Below, piece after piece: positions 43,158 through 63,650 of a DNA stretch of 64,000 nucleotides (its first letter is position 1; every line of letters starts with the position of its first letter). The stretch is from Gluconacetobacter dulcium (GTDB taxonomy: Bacteria; Pseudomonadota; Alphaproteobacteria; Acetobacterales; Acetobacteraceae): assembly GCF_014174165.1 (NCBI RefSeq), contig NZ_JABEQN010000003.1, positions 1-64,000 of the forward strand, read 5' to 3'. The position numbers and the translations under genes are program-made. The notes under the pieces are model-generated. The model had not been told where the DNA came from and did no database searches. It saw only the letters and a program-made list of their open reading frames with translations.

Positions 43158-43220
43158 CGCGCCTTCCGGCCGCGGGGGCGCTTGCCCGAATCCCTGTGCT
43201 CGGCTAGAAGCAGAGCGTGT

Positions 43221-43525
43221 GTCCGCGTAGCTCAGCAGGATAGAGCACAGGATTCCTGGTTTTCAAATTGGGCGTCATGGCGGGAAACCTCATGACGGAT
43301 CCGCTCAAATTCGGGGAACGCTCTGACACCGTGTGTCGTGCCGATCCCGAGCCAAGCCCGGTCCTGCCGGGAAGGTGTAGAGACTGGACGGGCGGCACCT
43401 GTCGGCCTTCGGGCTTAGGGTGAAGGGACAGTCCAGACCACGAACGCCATTTTCGGATGGCGGCGGTGAAAGCCGAAGTGGGATGAATCCTGGGGCCGTG
43501 GGTTCGAATCCCGCCGCGGACACCA
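43221..43525 (+). tRNA. tRNA-Arg(CCU) split by a group I intron
   Basis: The exons are 43221-43257 and 43486-43525, 77 nt when joined, with CCA encoded. The acceptor stem GTCCGCG/CGCGGAC pairs perfectly and the D-arm is GCTC-AGCAGGATA-GAGC. The anticodon stem CAGGA/TCCTG forms only after removing 43258-43485 and frames the loop TTCCTAA (anticodon CCT), and the T-arm is GTGGG-TTCGAAT-CCCGC. The discriminator is A. The break lies immediately after the third anticodon base. It is 63 nt downstream of holA, same strand. Confidence 0.93.
43258..43485 (+). mobile_element. Group I intron (228 nt, no ORF) in the tRNA-Arg(CCU) anticodon loop
   Basis: It follows the rules for group I introns: the 5' exon ends in U, the intron ends in G (43485). 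An internal guide sequence ATTGGG at 43267-43272 is complementary to the ligated exons CCT-AAT, with the expected G-U wobble at the splice site (P1 plus P10). CTGGAC (43384-43389) within GTAGAGACTGGACGG and GTCCAG (43431-43436) can form P7. Insertion after CCU matches the known tRNA-Arg(CCU) intron of Agrobacterium. Subclass (probably IC3) is recalled, not computed. Confidence 0.88.
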
Positions 43526-44181
43526 TCATTGCGCCGGGATGCGTTTCACGCTCCCTGCCCCGCTTTCCGGGCATGTCTGGTGAGTGGGACACTGATATGT
43601 CTTTTGCGCACATGCATGGAGCATGGGTCGTTTCGACCCCGAACCGCCGGAAGACATAAAAAGAACACAGACATAAAGAATTTATACTTGAAGAGCCCGG
43701 TGGATGGCTGGTCGGCGGGCCTGCTCGTTGGCATCGGCGGCGCTGTCGGAGACGAGAATTACAGTGATCGCCGGAGGGCCGGCCAGACGATGCCTGACTG
43801 TCGTAAAGCGTTGCATGGCTGCCAATCGCCGGGAATGGGCAGCAAAATGCTGGCGCCTCCGGCCAGGCGGGATGCCGGGACGCGCGCCGCTCCTGTCAGG
43901 CAGGCATGGCAGATGCCGGTTCGATAGGCGAGGATGTGATTAAAATTTAGGCATAACGCGACAGCCGGCAGCGGCTGAAAATCTGAAGTTCGTATTCCGC
44001 CATATACTTACAGCATAAGGCCATTGCCTGTTCCGGCGTTGACGCCTTGTTTACGGGTTTACGGGCGAGGGAAGCACATGAAACGAGCGGAACTATTTTT
44101 TCAACGCCGATATGGCTTTTCCCCCCGACCCGACCGCGTTACATCGTAATCCGATCATCGCATTGGGACACATATCTCTTC
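43526..44181. other. Intergenic region upstream of the PKS gene
   Basis: 656 bases with no recognisable gene apart from a 23-codon leader-like frame (44078-44149). Two low-GC patches, 43655-43695 and 43935-44000 (for example ATTAAAATTTAGGCATAAC), stand out and are likely promoter regions for the PKS operon. GC and codon structure differ from the leuS-holA block, so this marks the border between core and accessory DNA. Confidence 0.4.
44078..44149 (+). CDS. Possible 23-residue leader peptide upstream of the PKS
   Basis: ATG at 44078 with GAGGGAAG 4-5 nt upstream, the best ribosome binding site in the region, begins MKRAELFFQRR and stops at 44147-44149, 33 nt before the PKS ATG. The PKS itself has no obvious ribosome binding site, so translation of this short frame could deliver ribosomes to it. 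It has no recognised motif. It could equally be chance. Confidence 0.3.
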   Translation: MKRAELFFQRRYGFSPRPDRVTS

Positions 44182-47100
44182 ATGCATAACAGTTCGACGT
44201 CCGAGCCCAAGACCACTACTCGGGATGAGCCCATCGCCATCGTTGGCGCATCCTGCCGCCTTCCCGGGGCGCCGGACGTTACCAGCCTGTGGCAGCTGCT
44301 GGACGAGGAACGCGAAAGCGTGCGGCCGATCCCGGAGAATCGCTTTCCATTAAGGGATTACTGGCATCCTCGTCGCGGCGAGACCGGCAAGTTCTATGCC
44401 ACCCGTGCCTCGACCCTGGACGAGATCGAACTGTTCGATGCCGCCTTTTTCGGCATTTCGGCCCGCGAGGCCCGGCAGATGGACCCGCAGCAGCGACTGT
44501 TGCTGGAACTGGCCTGGGAAGCCCTGGAAGATGCCGGCACGACGGCGGAGCGCATCGCGTCGGCCGGTGTGTATGTCGGCGCGTCGGGCCTGGAATATGC
44601 CAATCTGCGCCTGACCGACCCGTCGTCGGGCAACGCCTATTTCATGCCCGGCAACACGCTGAGCATCTTCTCCAATCGCGTGTCGTACGCGCTGGGGCTG
44701 CATGGGCCGAGCATGACCATCGATACGGCGTGCTCGTCGTCGCTGTTCGCCCTGCATGAGGCTTGCGAGGATCTCCGCGCGGGCCGCACGGACGTGGCGC
44801 TGGTCGGCGGTGTGAGCATGCTGCTGACGCCCTATCCCTTCATCGGCTTCTGCGCGGCCAGCATGCTGTCCCCGACCGGGCGTTGCCATGCCTTCAGTGC
44901 CGATGCCGATGGCTATGTCCGTGGCGAGGGCGGCGTCATGCTGCTGCTCAAGCCGCTGTCGGCGGCGCGGCGGGATGGCGACGATATCCGCGCGGTGATC
45001 ATGGCCAGCGGGATCAATGCCGATGGGCGGACGCCCGGCCTGACCTTCCCCAGTGCCCAGGCCCAGGCCGATCTGTTGCGCGAGGTTTATGATCGGGCCG
45101 GTGTCTCGCCGGATCAGGTCGCCTTCGTGGAGGCCCACGGCACCGGCACCCAGGCGGGAGATCCGGTCGAGACGACGGCGCTGGGCAAGGCCCTGGGCCA
45201 GTTGCGCGCCACGGCGCTGCCGATCGGCTCGATCAAGACCAATCTCGGCCATCTGGAACCGGCATCGGGCCTGGTCAGCATGTTGAAGGCCATGCTTGCG
45301 CTCCAGAACCGGCGCCTGCCCGCCTCGCTGCATTGCGCGAACCCGAACCCGGCCATTCCCTTCGCCGAGCTTAATCTGGAAGTCGTCACCGAGGCGCGTC
45401 CGCTTGACGATGGCCCGCTGATTGCCGGTGTCAATAATTTCGGTTTCGGCGGCGCCAATGCCCATGTGGTTCTGGCCAGCGCGCCGATCGAACCGGCAGA
45501 CGCGCCGGCCGCCGCGCCGGCGTCGGACGATGCCGTGCCGTTGCTGCTGTCCGCGCGTTCCGAGGCTGGTCTGGCCAGTCTTGCGCGGGTCTGGTCCACG
45601 CGGACCTGGACCGATTCCGAACTGCGCGGCGTGGCGACGCGACGTGCCCACCTGCCGCATCGTCTGGGCGTTCCCGGTGGGGACGCGGCGGAGATGCGCG
45701 CGGCGCTGGCGACGTGGGTGGAGACCCGCGCCCAGGCCGATGTCGTCACCGGGCAGGCCCTTGCGCAGGCGCGCACCGTCTTTGTCTTTTCCGGCAATGG
45801 CAGCCAGTTCTCGGGCATGGGGCGGGATCTGCTGGAGATCAGCCCCGTTTTCGCCGCCGGGGTGGCGGAGGCGGATGTGGCATTGCGTCCGCATCTCGGC
45901 TGGTCGGTTCTGGAGGCGATGCGCTCGGGCGACTGGTCGGCCGATCCGGCCGATGTCGCCCAGCCGATGCTGTTTGCGTTCCAGATCGGCGTTCTGCGCG
46001 GGTTGGAACGGCAGGGACTCAAGGCCGATATCATCGTTGGCCATAGCGTCGGGGAAATCGCGGCCGGGGTGCATGCCGGCATGCTGGAGATGGACGAGGC
46101 CGCGCGCATCGTTGCGCTGCGCAGCCGCCATCAGGCCACCGCGCCCGGTGGGGGCATGATCGCGCTCCATGGCGATGCCGAGGAGGCGCGGCGGCTGCTG
46201 GCCGAAGCCGGGCCGACGCTGGAGATTGCGGCCTTCAACGCACCCAACGCGCTGGCGGTGGCCGGCGAGGCCGAGGCGCTGGACCGACTGGAAGCGGCGA
46301 AGGGCAGTTCGTCGCTGCTGATCCACCGCCTGAAGGTGGGGTATGCGTATCATAGCAGCCATATGGACCGGATTGCCGAGGCGCTGATCCGCGATCTGGG
46401 TGCGATTACCGCACGCCAGCCCGAGCGGCTGATGATCTCGACCGTGACCAGCCAGCCTTTCACGGTCCTGCCCGATGCCGATTACTGGTGGCGGAATGTC
46501 CGCGCGCCGGTGCTGTTTGCGGAATCGGTGCGTCAGGCGGCGGCCGAAGGGGGCTCGGTCTTTATCGAGATCAGCCCTCGTCCGGTGCTACAGCATTATC
46601 TGCGCGACATTCTGCGGGGTGGCGATACGCAGTCGCGCGTGATGCCGGCGGTGCCGGCCAAGATTACGACCGATCCGTTCCCGCGCACCGCGCTGGCATG
46701 TTTCGCGGCGGGTTGCGACATTCTGTCCGCGGCGCATTTCGCGGGGCCGGCGCATGTGCGGGGCCTGCCCGGCGTGCAGTGGCAGCGCGAGCGGCATTGG
46801 TACGAACCGACCGAGGAAGCGCTGGCCGTGCTGTGGAACCAGCAGGGTACGCATCCCCTGCTGGGCGGTCATGGCAAGGCAGATGCCAGCGAATGGACCG
46901 CGCATCTGGATGGCGCGGTGCAGCCCTGGCTGGCCGACCACAAGGTGGGCGAGACGATCGTTCTGGCGGCTGCCTGCCTGATCGAATTCGCCTTTACCGC
47001 CGCGCGGGCGACGTGGCCCGAGGCCGAGATTCTGGAATTGCGCGATTTCCAGATCCTGCGTCCGGTGATCATCGAACAGACGCAGTTGCGCGAGATCCGG

Positions 47101-50100
47101 GTGCGGCTGGCGGCGGACGGCGCCGTGACCATCGACAGCCGGCCCCGGCTGTCGCACGCGGTCTGGACGCGCCATGCCACCGCGCGTGCCGGCCTGTCGC
47201 CAGTCGCGCCCGCGGCCCTGCCGACGGCCGCGACCGATACCGCCATGACCGGTGATGCGCTCTATGCCGTCGCGCGTGCCGCCGGGCTGGCCTATGGGCC
47301 GGCTTTCCGCCGTGTCGGTGCGATTTCGATGGCCGAGGGGCGGGTCGAGGCGACCTTGACGGGCGTGCCGCCGCTCGACGGGCTGACCCTGGACCCGACG
47401 GCGCTGGACGGCACCTTTCAGGCGCTGGTCGGGCTGGCGGTCAACCATGCCGATGCGGCCGAAGCGCCGCTGCCGCGCAAGTTCGGCGTGATCCGGCTGG
47501 ACCTGTCGGCCGGGCCGGCTGCTCGGGGACAGGCTGCCGTAACGACGTCCGGCCCGCGCGAAACCGAGGCCGACATCGTGATGCTGGATGCCACCGGCCG
47601 GGCCGTGCTGTCGGCGACCGGCTGCTGGTTTACCCGCATGCCGGGCGAACGGCCGGTGCCGGTGGCCGAGCGCAGTTTCCACGAGGTCTGGCTGCCGTCT
47701 CCCGTGGCGTCGGCCCCGCTCTCGGACGAGCGGTTTCTGGCGCTGCGCCCGGCCATGGAAACGCCGGTCGGCGATGCGGACGACAAGGATGCCGGGCTGC
47801 TGGCGCATACGATCCTGTCTGGGCAGACTTCGCCGGCCGGCGATGCTCCGGACGCCGCGCGGTTGTGGCAGACGCTTTTCCTCGACCTGCCGCAATGGTT
47901 GCCGGCGGCATTGCTGCTGGCGTGGATCGACGAGCGGAAGAATGCGGCGGTTGCCGCCGACGATGCCTTCCCCGACGTGGCGTTCCGGCAGTTGCTGTCC
48001 GGTCGCAGTGTGGAACTGGCGGCCGAGCAGATCGCGACCACCATCGCGGCCTATGCGCGGGACTGGCCGCAGGATCGCCCGCTGCGCGTGCTGGAACTGC
48101 ATGCCGACCGCGCCGCGCTGACGCGGCAGCTTGTTCCGCGTCTGGCAGACCTGCCGGGCCGGCTGGACTACACGATCCTGGAGCCGAACCGCGAGCGGCA
48201 GGCGCGGCTGCGGCCGAGCGTGCTGGCGCATCTGCCCGGCATCGTCATGGCCGAGACCGTGCCGGCCGGTGCGTATGACGTGCTGGTTGCCTATGCGCCC
48301 GGTCTGCACGGCCAGGTGCCGGCGGCGACGCTGGCCCATGCCGATCGGCTGGCGCCGGGCGGCCTGATCCTGGTGGTGGAAGCCGCCGAGGATGCGGGCT
48401 GGGCCACCTTGCGCGCGTTGTCGCCTGAACCGCTGCTGACGATCGGTGCCTGGCGCGACCTGCCGCACCGCCTGCGCGCGGTGGCCGAGAGCGTGCCCGC
48501 CCAGGCGCCCTTCCCGCTTGCCCTGCTGGCGGCGGTCGCGATCGACGCGGATGAATCCGAGGGTGAGGCCGTCTCGGCCGCCCCGGTGATTCGCGTGTCG
48601 CATGCTCCCGCGCAGGATGCCGGAGATGACACCGCGCGGACCGCTCAGGCGATGCTGGCGCTGGCCCGCGATGCCCGTGCCGCCGCCGAAGCCGGAGAGT
48701 GCCTGGCGATCGTGACCCGCGATGCGGCGGCCACGCCGCATGAGGCCGCGCGTGTTGCCCTGGGCCGGACGATCGCCAACGAGTTCCCTGCCCTGCGCTG
48801 TCGTCGGATCGATCTCTCTGCCGGCCTGTCGGAGACGGCGGTTGCGGCGGCGCTGGATGCCGAACGCGATGCGACCGATGACGAGCGCGAAGTGCGCTGG
48901 ACGGCGGATGGACGCTTTGTGCGCCGCCTGCGCGAGGGCCTGCCGGCCCGCGCCGCCGGCCCGCAGGGGGATGTGCGGCTGATCCAGCCCGTGCCCGGCC
49001 CGCTGGACCGGTTATGCTGGATGCCGGAACCTCGGGTCGAACCCGGTCCGCGCGACGTGGTGATCGACGTGCAGGCCAGCGGCCTGAACTATCGCGATGT
49101 GCTCTCGGCCATCGGCATGTTGCCTGACGAATTGCTGCTGGACGGTTTTGCCGGCGCCACGCTGGGCATGGAATGTGCGGGGACCGTGCTGGCGGTGGGT
49201 GCGGAGGTGACAGACCTTGCACCCGGCGACCGGGTGATGGCGCTGGCCGCCGCCGCCCATGCCAGCCGGGTGGTGACCGACCGGCGCAGCGTCTTCGCGC
49301 TGCCGGAATGGTTGTCCTTCGCGGCGGGTGCGACCATCCCGGTGACGTATCTGACCGTGCTCTATGCGCTGGAGACCGTTGGCCAGTTGCGGGCGGGCGA
49401 GACGATCCTGATCCATGGCGCGGCCGGCGGTGTCGGCCTGGCGGCCATTCAGTACGCCAGCCATGTCGGCGCGCGCATCATCGCCACCGCCGGCTCGCCC
49501 GCCAAGCGGGCGGCCCTGCGCGAACTGGGGATCGAGACCGTGCTGGACAGCCGGTCGCTGCGCTTCGGGGCCGATGTGCTGGCCGCGACCGGTGGGCTGG
49601 GCGTGGATGTGGTGCTCAATGCCCTGAGCGGCGAGGCCATGGAGCGCAGCCTGGAACTGGTGCGCCCGTTCGGCCGCTTCCTGGAACTGGGCAAGCGCGA
49701 CTTCCTGGCCAATACGCGCGTCGGTATCGGCCCGCTGCGGCAGAATGTCAGCTATCACGCGATCGACGTGGATGCGCTGGTGCGGCATCGGCCGGACCTG
49801 GTTTCGACCGTGACCGACCGCCTGCATACGCTGCTTGAGGATGGGGCGATCGGGCCGCTGCCTTATACCGCCTTCCCGGCCTCGGCCGCGACGGATGCGT
49901 TCGCGCTGATGCGGACCTCGGCGCATGTCGGCAAGATCGTGCTGACGAGGGGGCCGGTCCATGTGCCGCCCGCGCTGGATCTGCCCGCCGACCGCACCAT
50001 GCTGGTGACGGGCGGGACCGGCGGCTTCGGCGCGCGGGCCGCGCGGTGGCTCGTGACCCGTGGGGCGCGCCATCTGGTGCTGGTGAGCCGGCGCGGGCCG

Positions 50101-51204
50101 GCGGCCGAAGGCGTGGCGGCGTTGCGCGAAACGCTGCTGGAAGCCGGTGCGCGGACCGTGGAGGTGCGGGCCTGCGACGTGACCGACCATGCGGCGCTGG
50201 CGGCGCTGATTGCCGAGATCCGCGCCACCATGCCGCCTCTGGGCGGGATCGTTCATGCCGCCGTGACGGTGGCGGACGGGCTGGTGGCGACGCTATCCGA
50301 AGAACAGGTGACGGCTTCGGTACAGGCCAAGCTGGCCGGCGCGCTGTCGCTGGACGCGCTGACGCGGGATGATCCGCTGGCGCTGTTCCTGGTCTTCTCC
50401 TCCGCCACCATCACGCTCGGCGCGCCGGGTCAGGGGGCCTATGTGGCGGCCAATGCGGCGGTCGAGGCGCTGATCCAGCGCCGGCGGGATGCGGGCCTGC
50501 CCGGTTGTGCCGTGCGCTGGGGGCCGATCGCCGATGCGGGTTTCCTGGAACGCAACGAAGCGGCGCGCGAGGCGCTGGACCGGCGGCTGGGCGCGCGTTC
50601 GATGCGCGCGATGGCGGCGCTGGATGCCCTGCCCGACCTGCTGGCTTCCTCCGACCCCTGGCCGGTGCTGGCGGAAATGGACTGGCAGGCCACGGGCAGC
50701 CTGCCGATCCTGAGCGAGCCGCTGTTCGGCGCCGTGGCGCGGCGCCGGGACGAGGACGGCGATAGCGGCGACCTGATGAGCCTGCTGGCCACGGCCACCG
50801 AGGAACGGCGGGAAGAGATCGTCGCCGACCTGATCCTGGGCGAGCTGACCCGCATCATGCAGACCGACCGCGAGGCCCTGCCCCTGGACCAGCCGCTGGC
50901 TGAACTGGGTATGGATTCGCTGACGGCGGTCGAACTGGCGCTGGGGCTGGAACGCCGGCTGGGCGTGTCGCTGCCCGGCTTTGCCTGGCAGGAAATGACG
51001 GTGCGGCGCGTTGCGCGCCAGGTCTCCACCCTGCTGGGCAACAAGGGGCAGGAAGCCGCCGCCGCCACGCCGGATGAGGCCGTGATGGCGCGCCATCTGG
51101 CCTCGGACGAGGAACGGAACGTGGTGGTCGAGGCTGGCGAGGTTGCCGAAGGGACCGGGACGCCCGAGCCCGTGTTTTCGAACGAAGAAGAAACGACTCG
51201 ATGA
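44182..51204 (+). CDS. Iterative highly reducing type I polyketide synthase, RkpA-like (KS-AT-DH-psiMT-ER-KR-ACP)
   Basis: 2340 residues from ATG 44182. KS about 15-430 with Cys184 (DTACSSSL), His319 (EAHGTGT) and His357 (KTNLGH). AT about 535-830 with Ser622 in GHSVGE. DH about 865-1150 with His920 (LADHKVGE) and Asp1076 (TALDGTF); the usual Pro after the His motif is missing. About 1230-1460 is SAM-methyltransferase-like but lacks a GxGxG loop, so it is probably dead. ER about 1580-1930 with NADPH motif GAAGGVG at 1746. KR about 1938-2110 with GGTGGFG and Tyr2087. ACP with Ser2246 (LGMDSL). There is no thioesterase. Such a set would build a fully reduced acyl chain iteratively from malonyl units, like rhizobial RkpA. 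A 4-nt ATGA overlap joins it to the oxoamine synthase, which probably releases the chain. No loading module or second KS is present. Confidence 0.92.
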   Translation: MHNSSTSEPKTTTRDEPIAIVGASCRLPGAPDVTSLWQLLDEERESVRPIPENRFPLRDYWHPRRGETGKFYATRASTLDEIELFDAAFFGISAREARQMDPQQRLLLELAWEALEDAGTTAERIASAGVYVGASGLEYANLRLTDPSSGNAYFMPGNTLSIFSNRVSYALGLHGPSMTIDTACSSSLFALHEACEDLRAGRTDVALVGGVSMLLTPYPFIGFCAASMLSPTGRCHAFSADADGYVRGEGGVMLLLKPLSAARRDGDDIRAVIMASGINADGRTPGLTFPSAQAQADLLREVYDRAGVSPDQVAFVEAHGTGTQAGDPVETTALGKALGQLRATALPIGSIKTNLGHLEPASGLVSMLKAMLALQNRRLPASLHCANPNPAIPFAELNLEVVTEARPLDDGPLIAGVNNFGFGGANAHVVLASAPIEPADAPAAAPASDDAVPLLLSARSEAGLASLARVWSTRTWTDSELRGVATRRAHLPHRLGVPGGDAAEMRAALATWVETRAQADVVTGQALAQARTVFVFSGNGSQFSGMGRDLLEISPVFAAGVAEADVALRPHLGWSVLEAMRSGDWSADPADVAQPMLFAFQIGVLRGLERQGLKADIIVGHSVGEIAAGVHAGMLEMDEAARIVALRSRHQATAPGGGMIALHGDAEEARRLLAEAGPTLEIAAFNAPNALAVAGEAEALDRLEAAKGSSSLLIHRLKVGYAYHSSHMDRIAEALIRDLGAITARQPERLMISTVTSQPFTVLPDADYWWRNVRAPVLFAESVRQAAAEGGSVFIEISPRPVLQHYLRDILRGGDTQSRVMPAVPAKITTDPFPRTALACFAAGCDILSAAHFAGPAHVRGLPGVQWQRERHWYEPTEEALAVLWNQQGTHPLLGGHGKADASEWTAHLDGAVQPWLADHKVGETIVLAAACLIEFAFTAARATWPEAEILELRDFQILRPVIIEQTQLREIRVRLAADGAVTIDSRPRLSHAVWTRHATARAGLSPVAPAALPTAATDTAMTGDALYAVARAAGLAYGPAFRRVGAISMAEGRVEATLTGVPPLDGLTLDPTALDGTFQALVGLAVNHADAAEAPLPRKFGVIRLDLSAGPAARGQAAVTTSGPRETEADIVMLDATGRAVLSATGCWFTRMPGERPVPVAERSFHEVWLPSPVASAPLSDERFLALRPAMETPVGDADDKDAGLLAHTILSGQTSPAGDAPDAARLWQTLFLDLPQWLPAALLLAWIDERKNAAVAADDAFPDVAFRQLLSGRSVELAAEQIATTIAAYARDWPQDRPLRVLELHADRAALTRQLVPRLADLPGRLDYTILEPNRERQARLRPSVLAHLPGIVMAETVPAGAYDVLVAYAPGLHGQVPAATLAHADRLAPGGLILVVEAAEDAGWATLRALSPEPLLTIGAWRDLPHRLRAVAESVPAQAPFPLALLAAVAIDADESEGEAVSAAPVIRVSHAPAQDAGDDTARTAQAMLALARDARAAAEAGECLAIVTRDAAATPHEAARVALGRTIANEFPALRCRRIDLSAGLSETAVAAALDAERDATDDEREVRWTADGRFVRRLREGLPARAAGPQGDVRLIQPVPGPLDRLCWMPEPRVEPGPRDVVIDVQASGLNYRDVLSAIGMLPDELLLDGFAGATLGMECAGTVLAVGAEVTDLAPGDRVMALAAAAHASRVVTDRRSVFALPEWLSFAAGATIPVTYLTVLYALETVGQLRAGETILIHGAAGGVGLAAIQYASHVGARIIATAGSPAKRAALRELGIETVLDSRSLRFGADVLAATGGLGVDVVLNALSGEAMERSLELVRPFGRFLELGKRDFLANTRVGIGPLRQNVSYHAIDVDALVRHRPDLVSTVTDRLHTLLEDGAIGPLPYTAFPASAATDAFALMRTSAHVGKIVLTRGPVHVPPALDLPADRTMLVTGGTGGFGARAARWLVTRGARHLVLVSRRGPAAEGVAALRETLLEAGARTVEVRACDVTDHAALAALIAEIRATMPPLGGIVHAAVTVADGLVATLSEEQVTASVQAKLAGALSLDALTRDDPLALFLVFSSATITLGAPGQGAYVAANAAVEALIQRRRDAGLPGCAVRWGPIADAGFLERNEAAREALDRRLGARSMRAMAALDALPDLLASSDPWPVLAEMDWQATGSLPILSEPLFGAVARRRDEDGDSGDLMSLLATATEERREEIVADLILGELTRIMQTDREALPLDQPLAELGMDSLTAVELALGLERRLGVSLPGFAWQEMTVRRVARQVSTLLGNKGQEAAAATPDEAVMARHLASDEERNVVVEAGEVAEGTGTPEPVFSNEEETTR

Positions 51205-52487
51205 CAGGACCGAAATTCGGCCGGCGGCTGGGCGAACGCATCAAGCTGCTGGCCAGCCTGTCGGGCGGCGCACCGGCGGAGAGCAGCACGCGCGGCTGGT
51301 CGCTGCCCGGCGTGGAGGAAATGGAGTTCATCGCCAAGCGGGCGGCGGCGCTGGGCGTTTCCGACCCGTTCTTTCGCCAGCATGACGGGCTGGCCGCCGC
51401 CACCACCCTGATCGACGGGCGGGAATACATCAATTTCTCGTCCTACGATTATCTGGGGCTGAATGGCGATCCGCGCGTCATCGCCCAGGTGGAAGCGGCC
51501 CTGCACCGCTACGGCACGACGGTTTCCGCCAGCCGCATGGTGTCTGGCGAGCGGCCGTTCCATCGGGAACTGGAGCGGGCGCTGGCCGACTGGCATGGCG
51601 CCGAGGATTGCGTGGTGATGGTGTCGGGCCACGCGACCAACGTGACCACGCTGGCGCAACTGATGCGGCCGGGCGACCTGATCATCCATGATGCGCTGGC
51701 CCATAACAGCCTGATCCAGGGCGCGATCCTGTCGGGTGCGCGGCGCATCGCGTTTCCGCATAACGACGTGGCGGCGGCGCGCGAGCAATTATGGATGCAT
51801 CGCCGGGCGCACAAGCGCGCGCTGCTGGTGCTTGAAGGCCATTACAGCATGGATGGCGACATCCCTGATCTGGCGGCGTTCGTGGAACTGGCCCGCGAAT
51901 TCGACTGCATGACGCTGGTGGACGAGGCGCATTCGACCGGCGTGCTGGGCGCGCGCGGGCATGGCATTGCCGAAGAGGCCGGCGTGCCGCCCGACGCGAT
52001 CGACCTGTGGATGGGGACGCTGAGCAAGAGCCTGATCTCGTGCGGCGGCTATATTGCCGGCCGGGCCGAGATCATTACCTACCTGAAGCGCACCGCCGCG
52101 GGCTTTGTCTATTCCGTCGGCCTGCCGCCGACCAATGCGGCGGCCTCGATGGCGGCGCTGGACATTATCCGCGAGGAACCCTGGCGCATCGCGCGCCTGC
52201 GCGAGAACGCGACGCTGCTGCTACGTCTGTTCCGCGAGGCCGGTTTCGATACCGGAACCTCGGAAGGCTACGGCATCGTGCCGCTGGTCACCGGCAGTTC
52301 GCTGCTGGCCGGCCGGTTGTCGCAGGCGCTGTTCGAGCGCGGGCTGAATGTTCAGCCCATCATTCACCCGGCCGTGCCGGAGAAGGCGGCCCGGCTGCGC
52401 TTCTTCGTCAGCGCCTCACACACGCCCGAGCAGATCGCGCAGACCGTCTCGATCGTGACTCAGGCGCTGCGCGCCCTGTCGGAATAG
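51201..52487 (+). CDS. PLP-dependent alpha-oxoamine synthase (RkpG/serine palmitoyltransferase/BioF-like)
   Basis: 428 residues starting in an ATGA overlap with the PKS stop. Class II PLP fold: FSSYDYLGLNGDPRV, YGTTVSASRMVSGERPFH, LVDEAHSTGVLGARGHG (PLP Asp and His), and Lys276 in GTLSKSLISCGGY, the Schiff-base lysine. The family condenses an acyl thioester with an amino acid, losing CO2, to give an amino-ketone. The N-terminal 70 residues before the core are longer than in BioF, as in RkpG and PKS-linked members. Given the coupling, the acyl donor is probably the PKS ACP-bound chain. The amino acid (serine, glycine or alanine) cannot be read. Confidence 0.9.
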   Translation: MTGPKFGRRLGERIKLLASLSGGAPAESSTRGWSLPGVEEMEFIAKRAAALGVSDPFFRQHDGLAAATTLIDGREYINFSSYDYLGLNGDPRVIAQVEAALHRYGTTVSASRMVSGERPFHRELERALADWHGAEDCVVMVSGHATNVTTLAQLMRPGDLIIHDALAHNSLIQGAILSGARRIAFPHNDVAAAREQLWMHRRAHKRALLVLEGHYSMDGDIPDLAAFVELAREFDCMTLVDEAHSTGVLGARGHGIAEEAGVPPDAIDLWMGTLSKSLISCGGYIAGRAEIITYLKRTAAGFVYSVGLPPTNAAASMAALDIIREEPWRIARLRENATLLLRLFREAGFDTGTSEGYGIVPLVTGSSLLAGRLSQALFERGLNVQPIIHPAVPEKAARLRFFVSASHTPEQIAQTVSIVTQALRALSE

Positions 52488-53653
52488 GCTGACAATATCC
52501 GCCGCACCGAGCCCTCTACCGCGAGGGCTCGCCCCTCGGGGGTGAAGAAATCGCCTTCGACCAGGACTTCCTGGATCAGCATGCGGCAGAACGCATCGAG
52601 CAGTTCGGCATCCGGTCTGCTGGCCTCGCGCCAGAAGAGGTCCAGCGGTTCCTGGAACGTCAGACCCGGAACATCGTAGATGGCTTCGCCAAGAATCTTG
52701 ACCGGGCGGTCGCGCCGCAGGGCCAGCAGCCCGACCGTGCTGTTGACCGTGACGATCCCTTCGCTGGCGTCCAGCACGGGGTCGAGCTGGCCATCGGCCA
52801 TGAAATAGACCCGTGCCGCGATGCCCAGCGCGCGCGCGCGCTGGGTGATCAGCCCTTCCCAGTCCGTCAGGCGCGGATCGAGCGGATGGCGGCGGACGAC
52901 CAGGGAGAGCGTGTCGGGCGCATGGGCGGCGAAGGAGGCCAGGATCTGTTCCAGCGCCTCGGCCATGCCGCGAAACGGCGAATGGACCCGCAACTGGTAG
53001 TCGCCATCCAGTTGCATCGGCACCAGCATGAACGGCCCCTGGGGCAGGATCGCGTCCTTGGGCTTGCGCACCAGGCGCCCCGTCCAGTCCCGCAGCCAGC
53101 CCGCATATTCCACGAACGGACTGACCGCCGCATGGAAACGCGCATGGGGAAACAGCGCCGCCATGGCCACGCGCAGGCCGTGATAGGAAACATCGTAGAC
53201 CGCGCGCCGCAGGAAATCGGAATGCGGGTTGTAATGCATGGGGGGCCAGGGTGCCTGGCCCCGTTCGCGGATATGCGCGGCATCGCGCGGCAGGGCCGAA
53301 AAGCCGTTGACGCCATGGGGCTCCAGCGTGATCCAGCCGGGCCTGAGATAGCCTTCCTCGAACACCCAGATGGCGATGCCGTGCGCGCGGGCGATGTCGG
53401 TTGCCACGAGATGAATCGGGCGGCAGTCGCCGAACAGGATGAGTCCGTCCGGCTTGTCCTCGGCGATGATCTTTTCGAGGAAGGCAGGCAGGGCGCGCTC
53501 GCGCCCGCGAAACCATGTGACATCGTGCGAAAAGACGACATCGCCGCCATTGAAGGCAATGCGGCGGACATGATGGCCGGCTGCCCGGAGCGCAATCGCC
53601 AGTTCGGAGAAGAACGGCGTGGCATTTCCTTGCAGCATCAGAAAACTTAGCAA
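52460..53653 (-). CDS. KpsS/RkpJ-like capsular polysaccharide Kdo-transferase-family protein
   Basis: 397 residues from TTG 53653 (ATG 53638 is also possible). KpsS-type landmarks: FLMLQGNATPFFSELAIALR at the start, FGDCRPIHLVATDIARAHG, WVFEEGYLRPGWITLEPHGV (diagnostic), HPLDPRLTDW and VTVNSTVGLLALRRDRPVKI. In E. coli group 2 capsule systems KpsS adds the first beta-Kdo to a phosphatidylglycerol anchor. It is convergent with the oxoamine synthase, the stops overlapping by 28 nt. Its substrate here may differ if the anchor is a polyketide lipid. Confidence 0.87.
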   Translation of the reverse strand: MLSFLMLQGNATPFFSELAIALRAAGHHVRRIAFNGGDVVFSHDVTWFRGRERALPAFLEKIIAEDKPDGLILFGDCRPIHLVATDIARAHGIAIWVFEEGYLRPGWITLEPHGVNGFSALPRDAAHIRERGQAPWPPMHYNPHSDFLRRAVYDVSYHGLRVAMAALFPHARFHAAVSPFVEYAGWLRDWTGRLVRKPKDAILPQGPFMLVPMQLDGDYQLRVHSPFRGMAEALEQILASFAAHAPDTLSLVVRRHPLDPRLTDWEGLITQRARALGIAARVYFMADGQLDPVLDASEGIVTVNSTVGLLALRRDRPVKILGEAIYDVPGLTFQEPLDLFWREASRPDAELLDAFCRMLIQEVLVEGDFFTPEGRALAVEGSVRRILSAYSDRARSA

Positions 53654-53719: not shown

Positions 53720-54964
53720 CTATTGCTCGTTTCCGCACTCGATCACGGCCAGGGCGGCGAGGCCGGCCACCACCTGGGTCGGCCAGTCGGCGAATGACGG
53801 GGGTGCCTGCGCGGCCGCCCCCCTGTCATGCCCGCTCCGTTCGCGGATCGCACGTCGCCAGCCGGGGCCGTCCAATGGATCGAGATAGACCGGGAGGTCC
53901 CCGGCGATTTCGCGAAAGACCGGCAGGTCGCTGCACAGGCACGGAACGCCCATTGCCAATGCTTCCAGCAGCGGAAGGCCGAACCCTTCGGCAAATGACG
54001 GGAACAGCAACGCGCGCGCACCCCGGACCAGCCCCGCCACGGCCTGGTCGGATAACGTGGCGTGTTCGTGCACGACCCCCTGCAAGGCGGGGCATCGTTC
54101 GATCATGTCCAGGATGTTCTCGTTTTCCCATCCGCGTCGGCCGATGATCACCAGATGCGGCAGGGGCGTGGTGCCGCCCTCCATCGCCATCTGGCGCCAC
54201 AGATTCAGCAGCAGCAGGTGGTTCTTGCGCGGCTCGATCGTGCCCAGGATCACGAAATAGGGGGCGTCGGGCGCCAGATTGCCCACCAATGCCGGACCGT
54301 TGGACGGAACAAGGCAGCCGTGATGCACCACGCTGACCGGCGGACAAGGCCCGTGGGGGGCCAGATAATCGCGCAATGCGTCCCCGACCGGCCGGGACGG
54401 GACGATCACGCACTCCGCCAGCCGCCCCACGGTATCCATGCGGCGGCGATGGCGGTCGGGTTCGGTCGGGCGGGCATATTCGGGATATTCGATCGGGATC
54501 AGGTCGTGGACCATGACCGCCATCGTGGCATCGGCCCGTTTCAGAAAAACCTCGATCGCGTCGTCGCGCATCAGGTGATGATGCGAAAGCAGCAGATAGG
54601 TCCGGCGGTGTTTCGCACGGCCGGCCGCCCCGAGGGCCGCGGCCTGCAACAGCAGCCCGGCCAGCAGCGACGCCGTGCGCGACGGCCGCGTGCCGCCTGC
54701 CCAGGCGCGTGCGAGGGTCCGCAGGAAACGATCCGTCAGCCGACGCGGCATGAGGCCGATGCGCCCGATCGGGTGAAAGGCCACGAACATGACCTGGGAC
54801 GCGGGAAAGCGCATGAGATACAGCGCATATTCCAGTTCCACACGGTCGATCCCCGTCGGCACGGCGCTGCCGGCGCGCGACAGCAGGCGGGAGATATCCA
54901 TCAGAACCGGACGGGGCAGGATGTCGGCCGGCCGTCGCGAACCGTGCGCCACACTGCCGCTCAT
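53720..54964 (-). CDS. Glycosyltransferase, GT4-type (GT-B fold)
   Basis: 414 residues from ATG 54964, which overlaps the KpsC-like stop (ATGA). C-terminal GT-B domain with FVILGTIEPRKNHLLLLNLW, the GT4 signature FPSFAEGFGLPLLEALAMGV and CSDLPVFREIAGD. The N-terminal part (DISRLLSRAGSAVPTGIDRVE) resembles rhamnosyl/mannosyl-type transferases. Donor and acceptor unknown; dTDP-rhamnose is a reasonable candidate from the neighbouring rfb genes. Confidence 0.86.
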   Translation of the reverse strand: MSGSVAHGSRRPADILPRPVLMDISRLLSRAGSAVPTGIDRVELEYALYLMRFPASQVMFVAFHPIGRIGLMPRRLTDRFLRTLARAWAGGTRPSRTASLLAGLLLQAAALGAAGRAKHRRTYLLLSHHHLMRDDAIEVFLKRADATMAVMVHDLIPIEYPEYARPTEPDRHRRRMDTVGRLAECVIVPSRPVGDALRDYLAPHGPCPPVSVVHHGCLVPSNGPALVGNLAPDAPYFVILGTIEPRKNHLLLLNLWRQMAMEGGTTPLPHLVIIGRRGWENENILDMIERCPALQGVVHEHATLSDQAVAGLVRGARALLFPSFAEGFGLPLLEALAMGVPCLCSDLPVFREIAGDLPVYLDPLDGPGWRRAIRERSGHDRGAAAQAPPSFADWPTQVVAGLAALAVIECGNEQ

Positions 54965-56637
54965 GCGGGGCGGGCCGACCGGATGCGCGCCCATGCCTTG
55001 CGCAGCGCCGTCTGCGCGGCCAGCGCGCGCATCCATGGCGTGGGGCGCCACAGGTCGGGGGTTTGCAGACGGTCGATCAGAACTTCCGGACCGCAGGGCA
55101 GTCGCGTAACCGGGTCGAGATAGCGCGGGAACAGAATCAGCACTCCGGCAACGAGGTCTTCCAGGGACAGGCGCCGTGTCCGGCGTGCGGGAACATCCCC
55201 CAGGTCGACCGTCAGCCCCCACCCCGCATAGAACGGCGCGCCATAGGTCACAACCCGCCGTCCGCGCATAAGCGCCTCGAACCCGGCAAGGGAGGTCAGG
55301 GTATGGACCTCGTCGACCCGGGCGATCGTATCGAGGATCGCCCCGCCCCGGTCGATGCGATCGGCCAGTTGCATGACGACGGAATCCTCCATGTGGCCCA
55401 ATCTGTGCGTTGCCTCGACATCAGGATGTGGCCTGTAGACGATAAAGGCGTCAGGATTATGTCGCCGGACGGCCTGGAGCAGTTCCAGATTGCCGCCGAT
55501 CCGGCCGCCGCCGCAGCGCACCGACTGGTCGTCCGCCACCTGTCCGGGCACCAGGATCGTCCGCCGGTCTCCGCTGTCCCACGCTTCGGACACGCGGGCG
55601 GCCTGGCCGGCGCCGTATTTGGAAATGCCGAGCCGGACCAGGGAGTCGGTGAGCCGCCGGGCGCGGGCGCGCAGCGCCGGGTCGAAGGAGGCGGTCGCCA
55701 GGATATGTTCCAGGTCGCTCTCCCGCGCCGGATCGTAATAGATTCCGCGCGTGTCGAGGGTGATCGAGGATGGCGGCATCAGCGCGCTGCCCAGGCCGAT
55801 GGAGCGGACGAACCCGTCTTCCACGCGCCAGAGAGGCGTGCCCGCCCGGCGGGCATCGTCCTCCAGCCCCGGTGGCAGGCGCGTTGCCCAGACCGCGATG
55901 GCGCCCGGCGGGCCGGCGCGAAAAGCCGGGATGAACGGGGGAGCGCCGGGCGCCTGCGCCAGGAAATCGGCGATGCGCCGCCGTTTCCACCGCGACATGC
56001 CCAGGCAGGCCACGATCTGGCGGTTGACCAGGATCGTGCGGCGCCAGTCGGCCAGCAGGGTAATTGCCTCGGCACAGGGGATTGGCGCGGAGCTGTAGGG
56101 ACTGACGTAATCCGTGCGGTCCAGAAGATCGGCCAGCACATCGGCCCGCAGCAAGGGCTGCTCCTGCCCGCCTTCCGCCCCAAGCACGACAGGCAGGTCC
56201 CGCAGGGCTGCCAGCCGCACGACATCGCCCACCGAATCGGCGTAGACCCGCGTCACGCCATCGAGCAGCGCATGCGGATCGCTCTGCCAGGGCGCATGCG
56301 CGATGCCGAGGCGCCCAGCCAGCCCCGAGGCGGCCTCCGCCGGTCCCCGGCGGACCAGCAGGACATCCCGCGCGGGATGGGCCGCCAGGACGTGCTTCAG
56401 CATGGCCACGGCGCGATGGCGTGCGCGCGCCGTGCGGGACAGGACGACCAGGACCGGACGCCGCTGCGTGGGTGCCGGCGCCCAGAAACACCCGCCGACC
56501 CGTTCGCGACAGATCCGCTCCGCCAGTTCGTCCCGCTCCGCATCCGCAACGGGGAACGCAGGTGCGGTGTCCTGCCGCGCGCGGGCGAGCACGGGCACCG
56601 ATCGGTGGAAGGGCGGTATCCGCAGGAACCCGGTCAT
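54961..56637 (-). CDS. KpsC-like capsule protein with one intact GT domain
   Basis: 558 residues. The KpsC core is in the second half: LWRVEDGFVRSIGLGSALMP, SSITLDTRGIYYDP, YRPHPDVEA, and the end motif HTLTSLAGFEALMRGRRVVTYGAPFYAGWGLT. KpsC normally has two such domains in about 670 residues (beta-2,4 and beta-2,7 Kdo transfer). Here residues 1-230 contain only a faint echo (PVLVVLSRTARARHRAVAML, YVSPYSSAP) and lack the RxEDGFxRS block, so the first catalytic domain looks lost or replaced. Coupled with the GT4 gene below. Confidence 0.83.
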   Translation of the reverse strand: MTGFLRIPPFHRSVPVLARARQDTAPAFPVADAERDELAERICRERVGGCFWAPAPTQRRPVLVVLSRTARARHRAVAMLKHVLAAHPARDVLLVRRGPAEAASGLAGRLGIAHAPWQSDPHALLDGVTRVYADSVGDVVRLAALRDLPVVLGAEGGQEQPLLRADVLADLLDRTDYVSPYSSAPIPCAEAITLLADWRRTILVNRQIVACLGMSRWKRRRIADFLAQAPGAPPFIPAFRAGPPGAIAVWATRLPPGLEDDARRAGTPLWRVEDGFVRSIGLGSALMPPSSITLDTRGIYYDPARESDLEHILATASFDPALRARARRLTDSLVRLGISKYGAGQAARVSEAWDSGDRRTILVPGQVADDQSVRCGGGRIGGNLELLQAVRRHNPDAFIVYRPHPDVEATHRLGHMEDSVVMQLADRIDRGGAILDTIARVDEVHTLTSLAGFEALMRGRRVVTYGAPFYAGWGLTVDLGDVPARRTRRLSLEDLVAGVLILFPRYLDPVTRLPCGPEVLIDRLQTPDLWRPTPWMRALAAQTALRKAWARIRSARPA

Positions 56638-56828: not shown

Positions 56829-57836
56829 TTATCGCTGGCTGGAAGGCGCGTATTGCGCGTCGTACCACGCGACGACCGCATCCACGCCGGTTTGAAGGGG
56901 CGTGGAAGGACGGAATCCGGTCAGGGCCTCGAGGGCCGAGCAGTCGGCCCAGGTTCGGGGCACGTCACCCGGTTGTATCGGCAGATAATGGCGCACGCAT
57001 GGCCGGCCGGTCGCTTTTTCGATCGCCGCGACAAATGCCGCCAGGCTGACGGGCTGGCTGTTGCCGATATTGACCACGCGATAGGGGGCCACGGGGCTGC
57101 TCCCCGGATCGCTCTCCCCTGCCTTTTCGGGGGCGACCCTGGAGAGGCGCAGGACGGCTTCCACCACGTCGTCGATATAGGTGAAATCGCGTGCCATCTC
57201 GCCGTTATTGTACAGCGTGACCGGCTGGCCCGCATGGATGTTGGCGATGAACCTGAACAGTGCCATGTCCGGCCGCCCCCATGGGCCGTACACGGTGAAG
57301 AAGCGCATGACGGTGGTGGGGAGTCTCCAGATATTGGCATAGGCGTGCGCCAGGTCTTCGGCCGCCTTCTTGGTCGCCGCGTACAGGCTCAGCGGATGAT
57401 CGCAGCGATGCGCCTCGGAAAAAGGCAGGACCGCGTTCGCCCCGTAGACCGAGGAGGACGACGCCATCATGAAATGAAGAGGCGGGTTGCGGCGCATGGC
57501 CTCCAGCAGCGTATAGGTGCCGAGGATATTGGAGCCGATATAGGTGCCGGGTGCGTCCAGACTGTGGGAGACGCCCGCCTGGGCGGCGAGATGCAGGACC
57601 ATCTGCGGCGCCCGTTGCGCGAACACCTCGCCCAGCGCCCGCGCATCCTCCAGCATGAATTCGTGGGACGTGAAAGTCTCGAACAGATGCAGGATGGCAT
57701 GACGCCGGCGTTTCAGGGAAACGTCGTAATAATCCGTCATCCCGTCGATGCCGATGACCGTATAGCCGTCTTCCAGCAGCCGTCTGGCGACATGAAACCC
57801 GATGAAACCTGCCGTGCCGGTCACGAGAATACGCAT
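56829..57836 (-). CDS. NAD-dependent nucleotide-sugar epimerase, UDP-glucuronate 4-epimerase-like
   Basis: 335 residues, extended SDR fold: RILVTGTAGFIGFHVARRLL (NAD), DGMTDYYDVSLKRRR (typical of UDP-GlcA 4-epimerases), SSSSVYGANAVLPFSE, catalytic YAATK, and RFFTVYGPWGRPDMALFRF. These features fit the CapI/UDP-glucuronate 4-epimerase class making UDP-GalA from UDP-GlcA for capsule. TGGAG lies 7 nt before the ATG. 57 nt separate it from the upstream glycosyltransferase. Confidence 0.9.
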   Translation of the reverse strand: MRILVTGTAGFIGFHVARRLLEDGYTVIGIDGMTDYYDVSLKRRRHAILHLFETFTSHEFMLEDARALGEVFAQRAPQMVLHLAAQAGVSHSLDAPGTYIGSNILGTYTLLEAMRRNPPLHFMMASSSSVYGANAVLPFSEAHRCDHPLSLYAATKKAAEDLAHAYANIWRLPTTVMRFFTVYGPWGRPDMALFRFIANIHAGQPVTLYNNGEMARDFTYIDDVVEAVLRLSRVAPEKAGESDPGSSPVAPYRVVNIGNSQPVSLAAFVAAIEKATGRPCVRHYLPIQPGDVPRTWADCSALEALTGFRPSTPLQTGVDAVVAWYDAQYAPSSQR

Positions 57837-57893: not shown

Positions 57894-59096
57894 TCACATC
57901 AGTGAAGCGTAAAACCCGCGCAACCGGTCGAGATAGGCATCGGGCGAAAAGCGGGTGGCGCGGGCCGCCCCTCTGGCAATCAGCGCCAGGCGGGCCGGAT
58001 CGTTCTCGCCCCAGCCATCCAGCACGCGAATCCCCTGGGCGATGGCGGAGACATCGAGCGGATCGACCAGGATCGCGGCGTCTTTCGTCGCAATCTCGCC
58101 GGTCGCGCCGCCGCGCGCGGTCAGGACCGGGGTGCCCAGGAGCATCGCCTCGATGATCGGGATGCCGAATCCTTCGGCCAGGGAGGGAAAGAGCAGGGCG
58201 TGGGCGTCCTGCATCGTCCGGACCAGGGTGGCGCGATCGCTCCAGGGCAGGCGGATGACCGGCGTGTCGCCGACGAACGGTGCGTAATCCGGCCTGTCGT
58301 CGCCGTCGGGGCCGATCAGCACCAGCGGCCGGCGCGTGCCGCTGCGCGCATGGGCGGCGACCAGGCGGCAGATGTTCTTGCGTCGCTCGACCCGGCCGAC
58401 ATGCACGAAATAGCCCGGCGGGGCCGGCGGCCGGGCGGCGCGCGCCTGCCGCAGTTCGTCTTCGGAGAACGTCACGGCCTGGTAGAGGTTGTGGATGCGC
58501 GACGGGGCGATGCCGCACTGGGTGATGATGTCCTGCCGCGCGGTTTCGGAAACCGTTACGATCACATCGCTGCTTTCGGCCAGGCGCATCATCAGGCGCC
58601 GGAACCGTTCGGAGTCGATTCCCGTCAGGTCCGGATGGGTCAGCGGCACGGCATCGTGGACCGTGACCACGTTGCGCGCGCCTTCCAGCCGGATCGGCAG
58701 GGGATAGGTCCAGTGCATGATGTCGGGCGGCGCGGCTGTCCTGACCCGTGCCAGGGTGCCCTGATGCGTGAATTTGACATGGGCGATGCGGAAAATGTCG
58801 GGACAGACCGCCCACGGCGCCGCACTGGGTGCCTGCCCTGCCCCATCGGCCGCCCCGCCCTGGTTCGCAGAGTGCAGGGTCGCGCGGTAATGCGGGCGCA
58901 GGCTTTGCAGCCGGCGCCAGATCTGCCGGGCCAGCGTGTGCGGGTTAGCCGGGGCCATGCCGGGGGCGTAGTCGGTGAGGTAGGTCGGCTGCATGCCCGC
59001 CCCGGCCAGACATTCGGCGGTGAGTTCCGTATAGCGTGCCACACCAGTGCCACCAGTCCGGTTCATGTTCCGGGCATCCAGCCAGATCATCGGCAT
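57894..59096 (-). CDS. Glycosyltransferase, GT4-type
   Basis: 400 residues from ATG 59096, with AAGGAG 8 nt upstream. N-terminus LDARNMNRTGGTGVARYTE and VHDAVPLTHPDLTG, then GT-B C-domain YFVHVGRVERRKNICRLVAA, FPSLAEGFGIPIIEAMLLGT and TARGGATGEIATKDAAILVD. Complete GT4-type transferase. The TGGTGVARYT start is shared with mannosyl/rhamnosyl-transferases; the sugar is not determined. Confidence 0.87.
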   Translation of the reverse strand: MPMIWLDARNMNRTGGTGVARYTELTAECLAGAGMQPTYLTDYAPGMAPANPHTLARQIWRRLQSLRPHYRATLHSANQGGAADGAGQAPSAAPWAVCPDIFRIAHVKFTHQGTLARVRTAAPPDIMHWTYPLPIRLEGARNVVTVHDAVPLTHPDLTGIDSERFRRLMMRLAESSDVIVTVSETARQDIITQCGIAPSRIHNLYQAVTFSEDELRQARAARPPAPPGYFVHVGRVERRKNICRLVAAHARSGTRRPLVLIGPDGDDRPDYAPFVGDTPVIRLPWSDRATLVRTMQDAHALLFPSLAEGFGIPIIEAMLLGTPVLTARGGATGEIATKDAAILVDPLDVSAIAQGIRVLDGWGENDPARLALIARGAARATRFSPDAYLDRLRGFYASLM

Positions 59097-59238
59097 GGCA
59101 AAAGCTCCTTCTTCCCGGTAAGAGACATGCCCCATCGATCCCTACGCGACGAGAACCGAATTTTGCCGAGCATGCCCCCGAGTGCCCAGACGCGACAGAT
59201 GACCGCGCCGCGCCGCGCGCGGAAAACGGGAGCATAGG

Positions 59239-63098: not shown

Positions 63099-63650
63099 AT
63101 GCAGATCGAACGCCTGGCCATTCCCGACATCCTGCTGCTGACGCCGCGCCGTTTCGCGGACGCACGCGGTTTTTTCTGCGAAACCTATAATATCCGCACG
63201 ATGGCTGACGCCGGCATTGCCCAGCCTTTCGTGCAGGACAATCACAGCCTGTCGCGCCAGCGCGGCGTGATCCGGGGGCTGCATTGCCAGCTTGCCCCCC
63301 ACGCCCAGGGCAAGCTGGTACGCTGCACGCGCGGCGCGATCTGGGATGTGGCGGTTGACGCCCGGCAGGATTCGCCCAGCTTCGGCCAATGGGTTTCGGC
63401 GGAACTCAGCGCGGAGAACGGATCGCAATTATGGATCCCGCCTGGTTTCCTGCATGGGTTCTGCACCCTGAGCGAGGACGTGGAGGTGCAGTATAAATGC
63501 ACCGATCTGTGGGACCGTGACTGCGAGCGTTCGGTGCGCTGGGATTCGGCGGAACTGGCGATTGCCTGGCCGGTGGCGGCCGGCGAGGCGATCCTGTCCG
63601 ACAAGGATGCCGAGGCCCCGGGCTTCTCCGCCGTGCGGGACTGGTTCTGA
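63099..63650 (+). CDS. rfbC: dTDP-4-dehydrorhamnose 3,5-epimerase
   Basis: 183-residue cupin epimerase: FADARGFFCETYN, NHSLSRQRGVIRGLHCQLAP (catalytic His), GAIWDVAVDARQDSPSFG, PPGFLHGFCTLSEDVEVQYK (catalytic Tyr) and CTDLWDRDCERSVRW. Begins 7 nt after rfbA and shares one base with the rfbD start. Confidence 0.95.
   Translation: MQIERLAIPDILLLTPRRFADARGFFCETYNIRTMADAGIAQPFVQDNHSLSRQRGVIRGLHCQLAPHAQGKLVRCTRGAIWDVAVDARQDSPSFGQWVSAELSAENGSQLWIPPGFLHGFCTLSEDVEVQYKCTDLWDRDCERSVRWDSAELAIAWPVAAGEAILSDKDAEAPGFSAVRDWF

Follow-up and report, generated by a model that had tools for sequence, protein, structure and literature searches.

An rkp-1/wcb-like lipid cassette at a KpsS/KpsC capsule locus of Gluconacetobacter dulcium and a possible phosphoglycerol-headed amino lipid acceptor

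In Sinorhizobium, the rkp-1 region contains rkpA, one large gene (PMC7902896) whose product makes a lipophilic molecule, and rkpGHIJ, which modify and transport this molecule, a possible lipid carrier or anchor of the K-antigen (PMC3557214, PMC4881576). The passages available from the latter two papers describe the lipid as a specific carrier or possible anchor and give no structure for it. According to the accessible part of its description, the wcb cluster of Burkholderia holds, close together, an oxoamine synthase (BPSL2787), the polyketide synthase (PKS) WcbR (BPSL2789), a sulfatase (BPSL2790), a short-chain dehydrogenase/reductase (SDR, BPSL2791) and KpsS (BPSL2792), and BPSL2788, annotated as a deacetylase, lies between the oxoamine synthase and WcbR (PMC4275268). 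A locus sharing several of these kinds of protein, a likeness drawn for wcb from the annotation available, was analysed here in Gluconacetobacter dulcium; the window is the stretch of DNA analysed, the first 64,000 nucleotides of contig NZ_JABEQN010000003.1 (assembly GCF_014174165.1). RkpG and RkpH are taken here to be an oxoamine synthase and an SDR, RkpI to be a membrane protein resembling sulfatases and RkpJ to be similar to KpsS/KpsC; RkpI and WcbQ are presumably the names of the putative phosphoglycerol transferase that is annotated as a sulfatase.

As the rkp-1 lipid proposal and the wcb protein kinds are in print, the locus represents a variant of an already known kind. An earlier note on this DNA had proposed an rkp-type gene set, in which the PKS and the oxoamine synthase supply a capsule with an amino ketone anchor, and this gene set is indeed found, together with an RkpI-like gene that the note does not mention. 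It had also suggested a class of PKS-primed capsules; the arrangement recurs in relatives, but the class is not new, since a lipid anchor is already proposed in the available part of an earlier paper (PMC3557214). In the present analysis, KpsS was found to split into two groups, one of which is co-inherited with the cassette genes. That the rkp-1/wcb-like lipid cassette serves a KpsS/KpsC-initiated capsule, exported by an ATP-binding cassette (ABC) transporter, by way of a phosphoglycerol-headed amino lipid acceptor is a reading held at about even confidence.

Compared with rkp-1 as described, the locus likewise has a reducing PKS beside an oxoamine synthase, a KpsS/RkpJ-type gene and an RkpI-like gene. 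It differs in that KpsS and KpsC are convergent to the PKS, the RkpI-like gene is some 7 kb distant, KpsC is present and an RkpH-like SDR is not seen in the locus. An Agrobacterium locus (L087) matches the rkp-1 gene order by sequence, with PKS, oxoamine synthase, SDR, RkpI-like gene and KpsS. With the E. coli group 2 loci (kpsFEDUCS, kpsMT) the genome shares KpsS, KpsC and KpsD-E-M-T-like exporter genes, the latter on another contig (G000:C4; KpsE assigned with TIGR01010 at 227 bits, below the cut-off of 437.5), and it thus has the genes of a group 2-like, ABC-transporter-dependent capsule. In contrast, no PKS, oxoamine synthase or sulfatase-like gene is annotated in the 19 kb shown of an E. 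coli locus (L214), whose KpsS belongs to the other clade.

The PKS contains ketosynthase (KS), acyltransferase (AT), dehydratase (DH), enoylreductase (ER), ketoreductase (KR) and acyl carrier protein (ACP) domains and no thioesterase domain, as judged by Pfam, and its stop overlaps the start of the oxoamine synthase gene by 4 nt (ATGA), as the earlier note had described. In an alignment with 20 relatives, the KS Cys and His, the AT Ser, the DH His and Asp and the ACP Ser are all kept, the nucleotide motifs of ER and KR and the KR Ser and Tyr are present, and the DH motif carries Ala in place of the usual Pro; the roles of these motifs are those that we take them to have. Between DH and ER, about 450 residues (47630–49000) are without a Pfam match and look by eye like a degenerate methyltransferase. 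The swf-type PKS of sponge symbionts was ruled out, as it is paired, in the part of its description available, with a reductase-sulphotransferase and a radical SAM protein and not with an oxoamine synthase (PMC3908369).

The oxoamine synthase is 98% identical to its counterpart in G. liquefaciens, and its best match in the PDB is serine palmitoyltransferase (SPT; 3a2b, 227 bits), to which the catalytic residues align. The lysine that binds pyridoxal 5'-phosphate (PLP) is presumably the one in TLSKSL, and the roles of the other catalytic residues are likewise assumed. SPT and 8-amino-7-oxononanoate synthase (BioF) are of the same PLP family, yet the protein stays below each matched NCBIfam cut-off, namely those of SPT (300 versus 640, 272 versus 500 and 221 versus 670 bits), BioF, 5-aminolevulinate synthase (ALAS) and 2-amino-3-ketobutyrate CoA ligase (KBL). 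Separate genes for SPT (639 bits, cut-off 500, beside a gene for an AMP-binding protein) and ALAS (513 bits, cut-off 339) and a BioF-like gene (412 bits, just under the cut-off of 426) are found elsewhere in the genome, so the enzyme of the locus is a fourth, separate one; a duplicate SPT, BioF or ALAS was rejected on these grounds, and the view of a dedicated enzyme coupled to the PKS held up.

The neighbourhood comparison suggested in the earlier note was carried out with relatives of the oxoamine synthase from named genomes (the best 80 of 88, of which 10 are from Gluconacetobacter). Immediately upstream, 78 of the 80 have a PKS piece, and the remaining two (L047 and L085) start at a contig edge. 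At least 7 kb of downstream sequence was available for 55 relatives, among which some kps gene was present in 41, KpsS or KpsC in 32, an RkpI-like gene in 23 and an RkpH-like gene in 18; with Gluconacetobacter excluded (n = 45), the respective numbers were 31, 22, 14 and 18. Linkage to kps genes recurs in Acetobacteraceae, Rhizobiaceae, roseobacters, several Betaproteobacteria, Pseudomonas and Desulfovibrionales, with KpsM-T-E following the pair in several members of the Betaproteobacteria and Desulfovibrionales. Loci linked to the oxoamine synthase were the source of all the profiles used (for KpsS, the RkpI-like and RkpH-like proteins and others), which were applied with chosen score thresholds, and distant cassette genes may be missed.

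A tree of the oxoamine synthase, made by a quick method and with long-branch warnings, contained 83 rows (66 of the 80 relatives after 14 near-duplicates or fragments were dropped, 13 sample loci, the window and three outgroups), of which 49 were labelled kps, 15 none and 19 unlabelled. Five kps-label changes were counted, versus 13.6 in shuffles. A secondary-metabolite cluster was rejected as the leading explanation because kps-linked rows occur throughout the tree and unlinked rows in a few clades; a placement with unrelated secondary-metabolite clusters, which the earlier note had named as contrary to its proposal, is not seen.

In a sample of 289 genomes of the same class, the oxoamine synthase (E ≤ 1e-70) was found in 14, and PF05159, the family of KpsS and KpsC, in 45 at E ≤ 1e-3 and in 19 at E ≤ 1e-30; eight of the 14 carry PF05159 at either cut-off. 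The association is significant at E ≤ 1e-3 (Fisher p = 2.8e-4) and stronger at E ≤ 1e-30 (p = 1.7e-7, or 1.5e-6 without the own genome), a cut-off that was picked after the list was seen, and all three values are uncorrected for relatedness. Seven of the eight class genomes carrying both have KpsS and the oxoamine synthase about 8 kb apart or less, the exception being G057, where an oxoamine synthase of 40% identity is on a different contig from KpsS.

The genome of G. dulcium has two PF05159 proteins at E ≤ 1e-3, both encoded in this locus. In a first KpsS tree of 43 rows, all 31 rows from PKS/oxoamine synthase loci fell in one supported clade, the only others in it being those of G011, G013 and G291, all with an RkpI-like gene, and nine rows stood outside. 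Because the oxoamine synthase had guided part of this selection, a second tree was made from loci picked by PF05159, to which the window was added, and a locus was counted as a cassette locus if a PKS, oxoamine synthase, RkpI-like or RkpH-like gene was in the stretch seen. In the resulting tree of 57 rows, all 22 cassette loci shared a single clade of 25 rows (98/97), and the 32 rows outside it included no cassette locus (four label changes versus 17.8 in shuffles; Fisher p = 6.6e-13, uncorrected for relatedness). Five of the 22 come from other classes than that of the window (L178 and L182–L185), and the clade spans acetic acid bacteria to Agrobacterium and Pseudomonas. When two rows from E. 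coli and five reference rows were added, the clade numbered 30 (100/99) and took in every cassette row (27 of 27), and both E. coli rows, one from the kpsFEDUCS locus, were outside. The three non-cassette rows in the clade (L193, L194 and L197) are the same in both trees and were seen over 11–20 kb only.

The 57-row tree left out 26 of the 76 phylum genomes with PF05159 at E ≤ 1e-35 (22 of family f23, plus G439, G552, G636 and G672), and among the 19 class genomes G239 was left out and G253 (L173) gave no KpsS. For L168–L172, with stretches of 1.7–3.7 kb, the absence of oxoamine synthase and RkpI-like genes was taken from genome-wide searches; G115 and G230 were counted as cassette loci by the oxoamine synthase alone, no PKS being detected in the stretches fetched. 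Where one stretch held two KpsS, the row nearest the KpsS profile was used; two KpsS-like genes are close together in L192, L194, L196 and L197. The NCBIfam KpsS model (cut-off 600) does not sort the two groups, as all tested rows, which did not include E. coli, were below its cut-off, and a search of solved structures with KpsS gave no match. A two-group division of KpsS is not stated in the literature searched, from which most subscription papers were outside coverage, nor is a phosphoglycerol-transferase role for RkpI/WcbQ.

The second PF05159 protein, KpsC, matches this family and solved KpsC only with its C-terminal module. Its N-terminal module is without the GFEAL-type motif kept in L071, L079, L156 and L160, and the motif is also missing in the KpsC rows of other Gluconacetobacter, Neoroseomonas, G011 and G291, with or without a PKS. 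In E. coli KpsC, according to the accessible part of the source, the N-terminal module forms beta-2,4 links (PMC7694667). Because the corresponding module is eroded here, a shorter linker of 3-deoxy-D-manno-oct-2-ulosonic acid (Kdo) is likely by analogy.

The RkpI-like protein and the Agrobacterium L087 protein both contain PF00884 and are 25% identical in the alignment. With a profile of 12 RkpI-like proteins, all seven PDB matches at E ≤ 0.01 were glycerol-phosphate transferases, the best being GacH (5e-24), followed by the lipoteichoic acid (LTA) primase (5e-15), with LTA synthases also matched; the window protein alone gave four matches, all of the same kinds and weak (E 0.0015–0.0043). 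E228, T269, H319, R328, H384, D436 and H437 are invariant across a seven-row alignment (A1) that includes the window, and are assumed to have the roles of their LtaS counterparts. The protein is related to glycerol-phosphate transferases of the LtaS/GacH type and is predicted from its sequence to transfer phosphoglycerol; on the profile search, sulfatase activity is thought unlikely. At E ≤ 1e-25, the RkpI-like profile was found in seven of the 289 class genomes, six of which have a strong PF05159 match and five the oxoamine synthase.

What the sequences show directly is the gene content, the active-site motifs, the linkage of the genes and the shared inheritance of one KpsS clade and cassette genes. 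The following route, whose chemical steps and anchoring role are all predictions, would fit these genes. An ACP-bound chain without a thioesterase can be released by an oxoamine synthase as an amino ketone, and an SDR suits the reduction of the ketone. The PKS would assemble a reduced acyl chain bound to its own ACP, and the oxoamine synthase would free it by decarboxylative condensation with an amino acid, for which serine or alanine is our best guess, to give a long-chain amino ketone. An RkpH-like reductase, encoded adjacently in many relatives and not here, would convert the amino ketone to a sphingoid-like amino alcohol, and the RkpI-like membrane enzyme may then add phosphoglycerol from phosphatidylglycerol. 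The simplest product fitting the genes would be a single-chain, phosphoglycerol-headed amino lipid that mimics lyso-phosphatidylglycerol; on this lipid, the KpsS of the cassette clade would set the first Kdo, KpsC would extend it and a rhamnose-containing glycan would follow.

Several observations weigh against this route. For the missing RkpH-like step, the best SDR of the own genome (G000:C4:108433) is unlinked and scores 204 bits, compared with 214 bits for the SDR in the cassette of G076; SDR matches just as strong (208 bits) occur in G011 and G013. The PKS/oxoamine synthase is present in only 14 of the 22 cassette loci of the 57-row tree (13 besides the window), and the other eight, some on short contigs, hold RkpI-like and/or RkpH-like genes alone. 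No kps gene was seen near the pair in 14 of the 55 relatives with at least 7 kb of downstream sequence; six of the 14 are from Methylobacteriaceae, and six of the other eight fall in one Roseomonas-type clade (two recorded as Asaia metagenome-assembled genomes, MAGs), while the remaining two, L059 and L085, are not in the oxoamine synthase tree. Likewise, PF05159 is not matched at E ≤ 1e-3 in six of the 14 class genomes that carry the oxoamine synthase; among these six, PKS pieces matching P0001 occur in G224, G281, G312 and G315 and not in G175, a count that leaves out G174. The lipid can therefore serve without KpsS. G011, G013 (a genome that is 87% complete) and G291 keep RkpI-like, KpsS and KpsC genes, and no PKS or oxoamine synthase was detected there at the cut-offs used, which means that the RkpI-like protein can do without that lipid. 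Finally, five transmembrane-like segments were counted by hydropathy ahead of the catalytic domain of the RkpI-like protein. The catalytic domain of LtaS-type enzymes lies outside the cytoplasm, and the active site is thus probably periplasmic; because KpsS works on the cytoplasmic side, the lipid would need to return across the membrane.

The last two points are also what speaks for the strongest alternative, in which a dedicated amino ketone or amino alcohol is the anchor, KpsS needs no phosphoglycerol head and the RkpI-like enzyme decorates the glycan or another surface molecule, as its GacH and OpgB-type relatives presumably do. This is nevertheless considered unlikely, since an RkpI-like gene is found in five of the eight class genomes with strong PF05159 and oxoamine synthase versus one of the 11 with strong PF05159 alone (p = 0.024, uncorrected for relatedness).

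A second alternative is that the acceptor of KpsS is ordinary lyso-phosphatidylglycerol, as it is in E. coli, and that the PKS lipid has an accessory role, as a membrane lipid or a carrier, in aiding export or surface retention. It would be consistent with the KpsS/KpsC loci of G011 and G013, where PKS and oxoamine synthase were not detected, and with S. meliloti 1021, which is reportedly, by the title of a paper, a producer of poly-Kdo with a phospholipid anchor that may be an ordinary glycerolipid; this likewise weighs against the amino lipid acceptor. However, the KpsS clade of the cassette loci stands apart from E. coli KpsS, and an unchanged acceptor would explain the split only by co-inheritance of a gene block, which makes this alternative improbable. 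G011 (L139) and G013 (L140) are both Gluconacetobacter genomes, and their diverged KpsS/KpsC/RkpI-like loci sit at the same place in the chromosome, behind leuS, lptE and holA. A simple deletion of the PKS in G011 is unsupported: in L139, to which the comparison is confined, leucyl-tRNA synthetase and HolA are 88% and 83% identical to those of the window and KpsS, KpsC and the GT4 glycosyltransferase only 42–51%, so the locus was probably exchanged. L139 also carries a gene of the fatty-acid-hydroxylase family (5260–5886).

That the pair makes a free lipid or signal and lies near kps genes by an accident of surface-gene clustering is highly improbable, as the kps-free pairs of Methylobacteriaceae, Roseomonas-type MAGs, G281 and G315 are set against the recurrent kps linkage, the association of the KpsS clade with cassette genes and the tie of the rkp-1 region to the K-antigen in the passages available (PMC4881576, PMC3557214). 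Among such loci, L147, L149 and L150 have consecutive genes for the PKS, the oxoamine synthase and an RkpH-like SDR; their genomes give no hit to PF05159 at E ≤ 1e-3, and the same lipid route is perhaps put to another use there. G224 has two PKS–oxoamine synthase pairs (L145 and L146), one beside KpsM-T-E, and no PF05159 match at this cut-off. In L070 (Methylobacteriaceae), the pair adjoins genes for squalene-hopene cyclase and squalene/phytoene synthase, with no kps gene nearby.

The features of the locus are listed in Table 1. The GT4 glycosyltransferase gene sits between those of KpsS and KpsC, all three on the strand opposite to the PKS and the oxoamine synthase; the two groups are convergent, with an overlap of 28 nt between KpsS and oxoamine synthase (52460–52487), and are therefore not one operon. 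The KpsS, KpsC and glycosyltransferase genes said in the earlier note to follow the PKS are thus real but on the other strand, with KpsC outside the region assigned to them (44182–53653). Of the proposed rhamnose/uronate capsule, rhamnose is consistent with rmlB, rmlA, rmlC and an RmlD match just beyond the window end, after rmlC, whereas uronate was not borne out, the epimerase being below each NCBIfam cut-off shown. Overall, the earlier reading was partly supported, and it had overlooked the RkpI-like gene with its likeness to glycerol-phosphate transferases, the KpsD-E-M-T-like exporter and the split of KpsS.

Table 1. Features of the capsule lipid locus and adjoining genes in the window (positions in nucleotides)
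Feature	Position	Strand	Basis or remark
Type I reducing PKS, KS-AT-DH-ER-KR-ACP (RkpA/WcbR-like)	44182–51204	+	2340 aa; Pfam domains, active-site motifs
Alpha-oxoamine synthase (RkpG-like)	51201–52487	+	428 aa; family matches, catalytic residues aligned
KpsS-like beta-Kdo transferase (predicted), cassette-linked KpsS clade	52460–53653	-	PF05159 250 bits; trees
GT4 glycosyltransferase	53720–55222	-	Open reading frame as listed; true start probably downstream of listed GTG
KpsC-like Kdo transferase (predicted); C-terminal module intact, N-terminal module eroded	54961–56637	-	PF05159 126 bits
NAD-dependent sugar epimerase/dehydratase	56829–57836	-	Below cut-off of each NCBIfam model shown
Second GT4 glycosyltransferase	57894–59135	-	
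Sulfatase-superfamily membrane protein (RkpI-like by neighbours)	59239–60735	+	PF00884; five transmembrane-like segments and catalytic domain related to GacH, LtaP, LtaS
RmlB-like dTDP-glucose dehydratase	61096–62184	+	
RmlA-like nucleotidyl transferase	62076–63092	+	Open reading frame as listed; start probably downstream
RmlC dTDP-4-dehydrorhamnose 3,5-epimerase	63099–63650	+	

Two further elements were seen in the window. At 43220–43530 (+), a tRNA-Arg(CCU)-like gene is apparently split by an insertion; the tRNA halves were spotted by eye, and ARAGORN reported no tRNA in the window, this site included. The insertion matches a group I intron model at 43253–43456, and its 35.2 bits fall short of the gathering score of 50. 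At 444–1541 (-), group II intron matches coincide with a reverse transcriptase/maturase frame.

Beyond the single locus, the Gram-negative capsules started by KpsS might comprise two acceptor classes, with lyso-phosphatidylglycerol in the E. coli type and a custom single-chain amino lipid in the other clade, so that the KpsS sequence predicts the anchor; this is put forward tentatively and is rather doubtful at present. If true, a capsule clade across several bacterial classes would rest on a sphingoid-like phospholipid and not on lyso-phosphatidylglycerol, and the KpsS sequence would become a predictor of anchor type. The genes named here point to the mutants to test and to the mass to look for.

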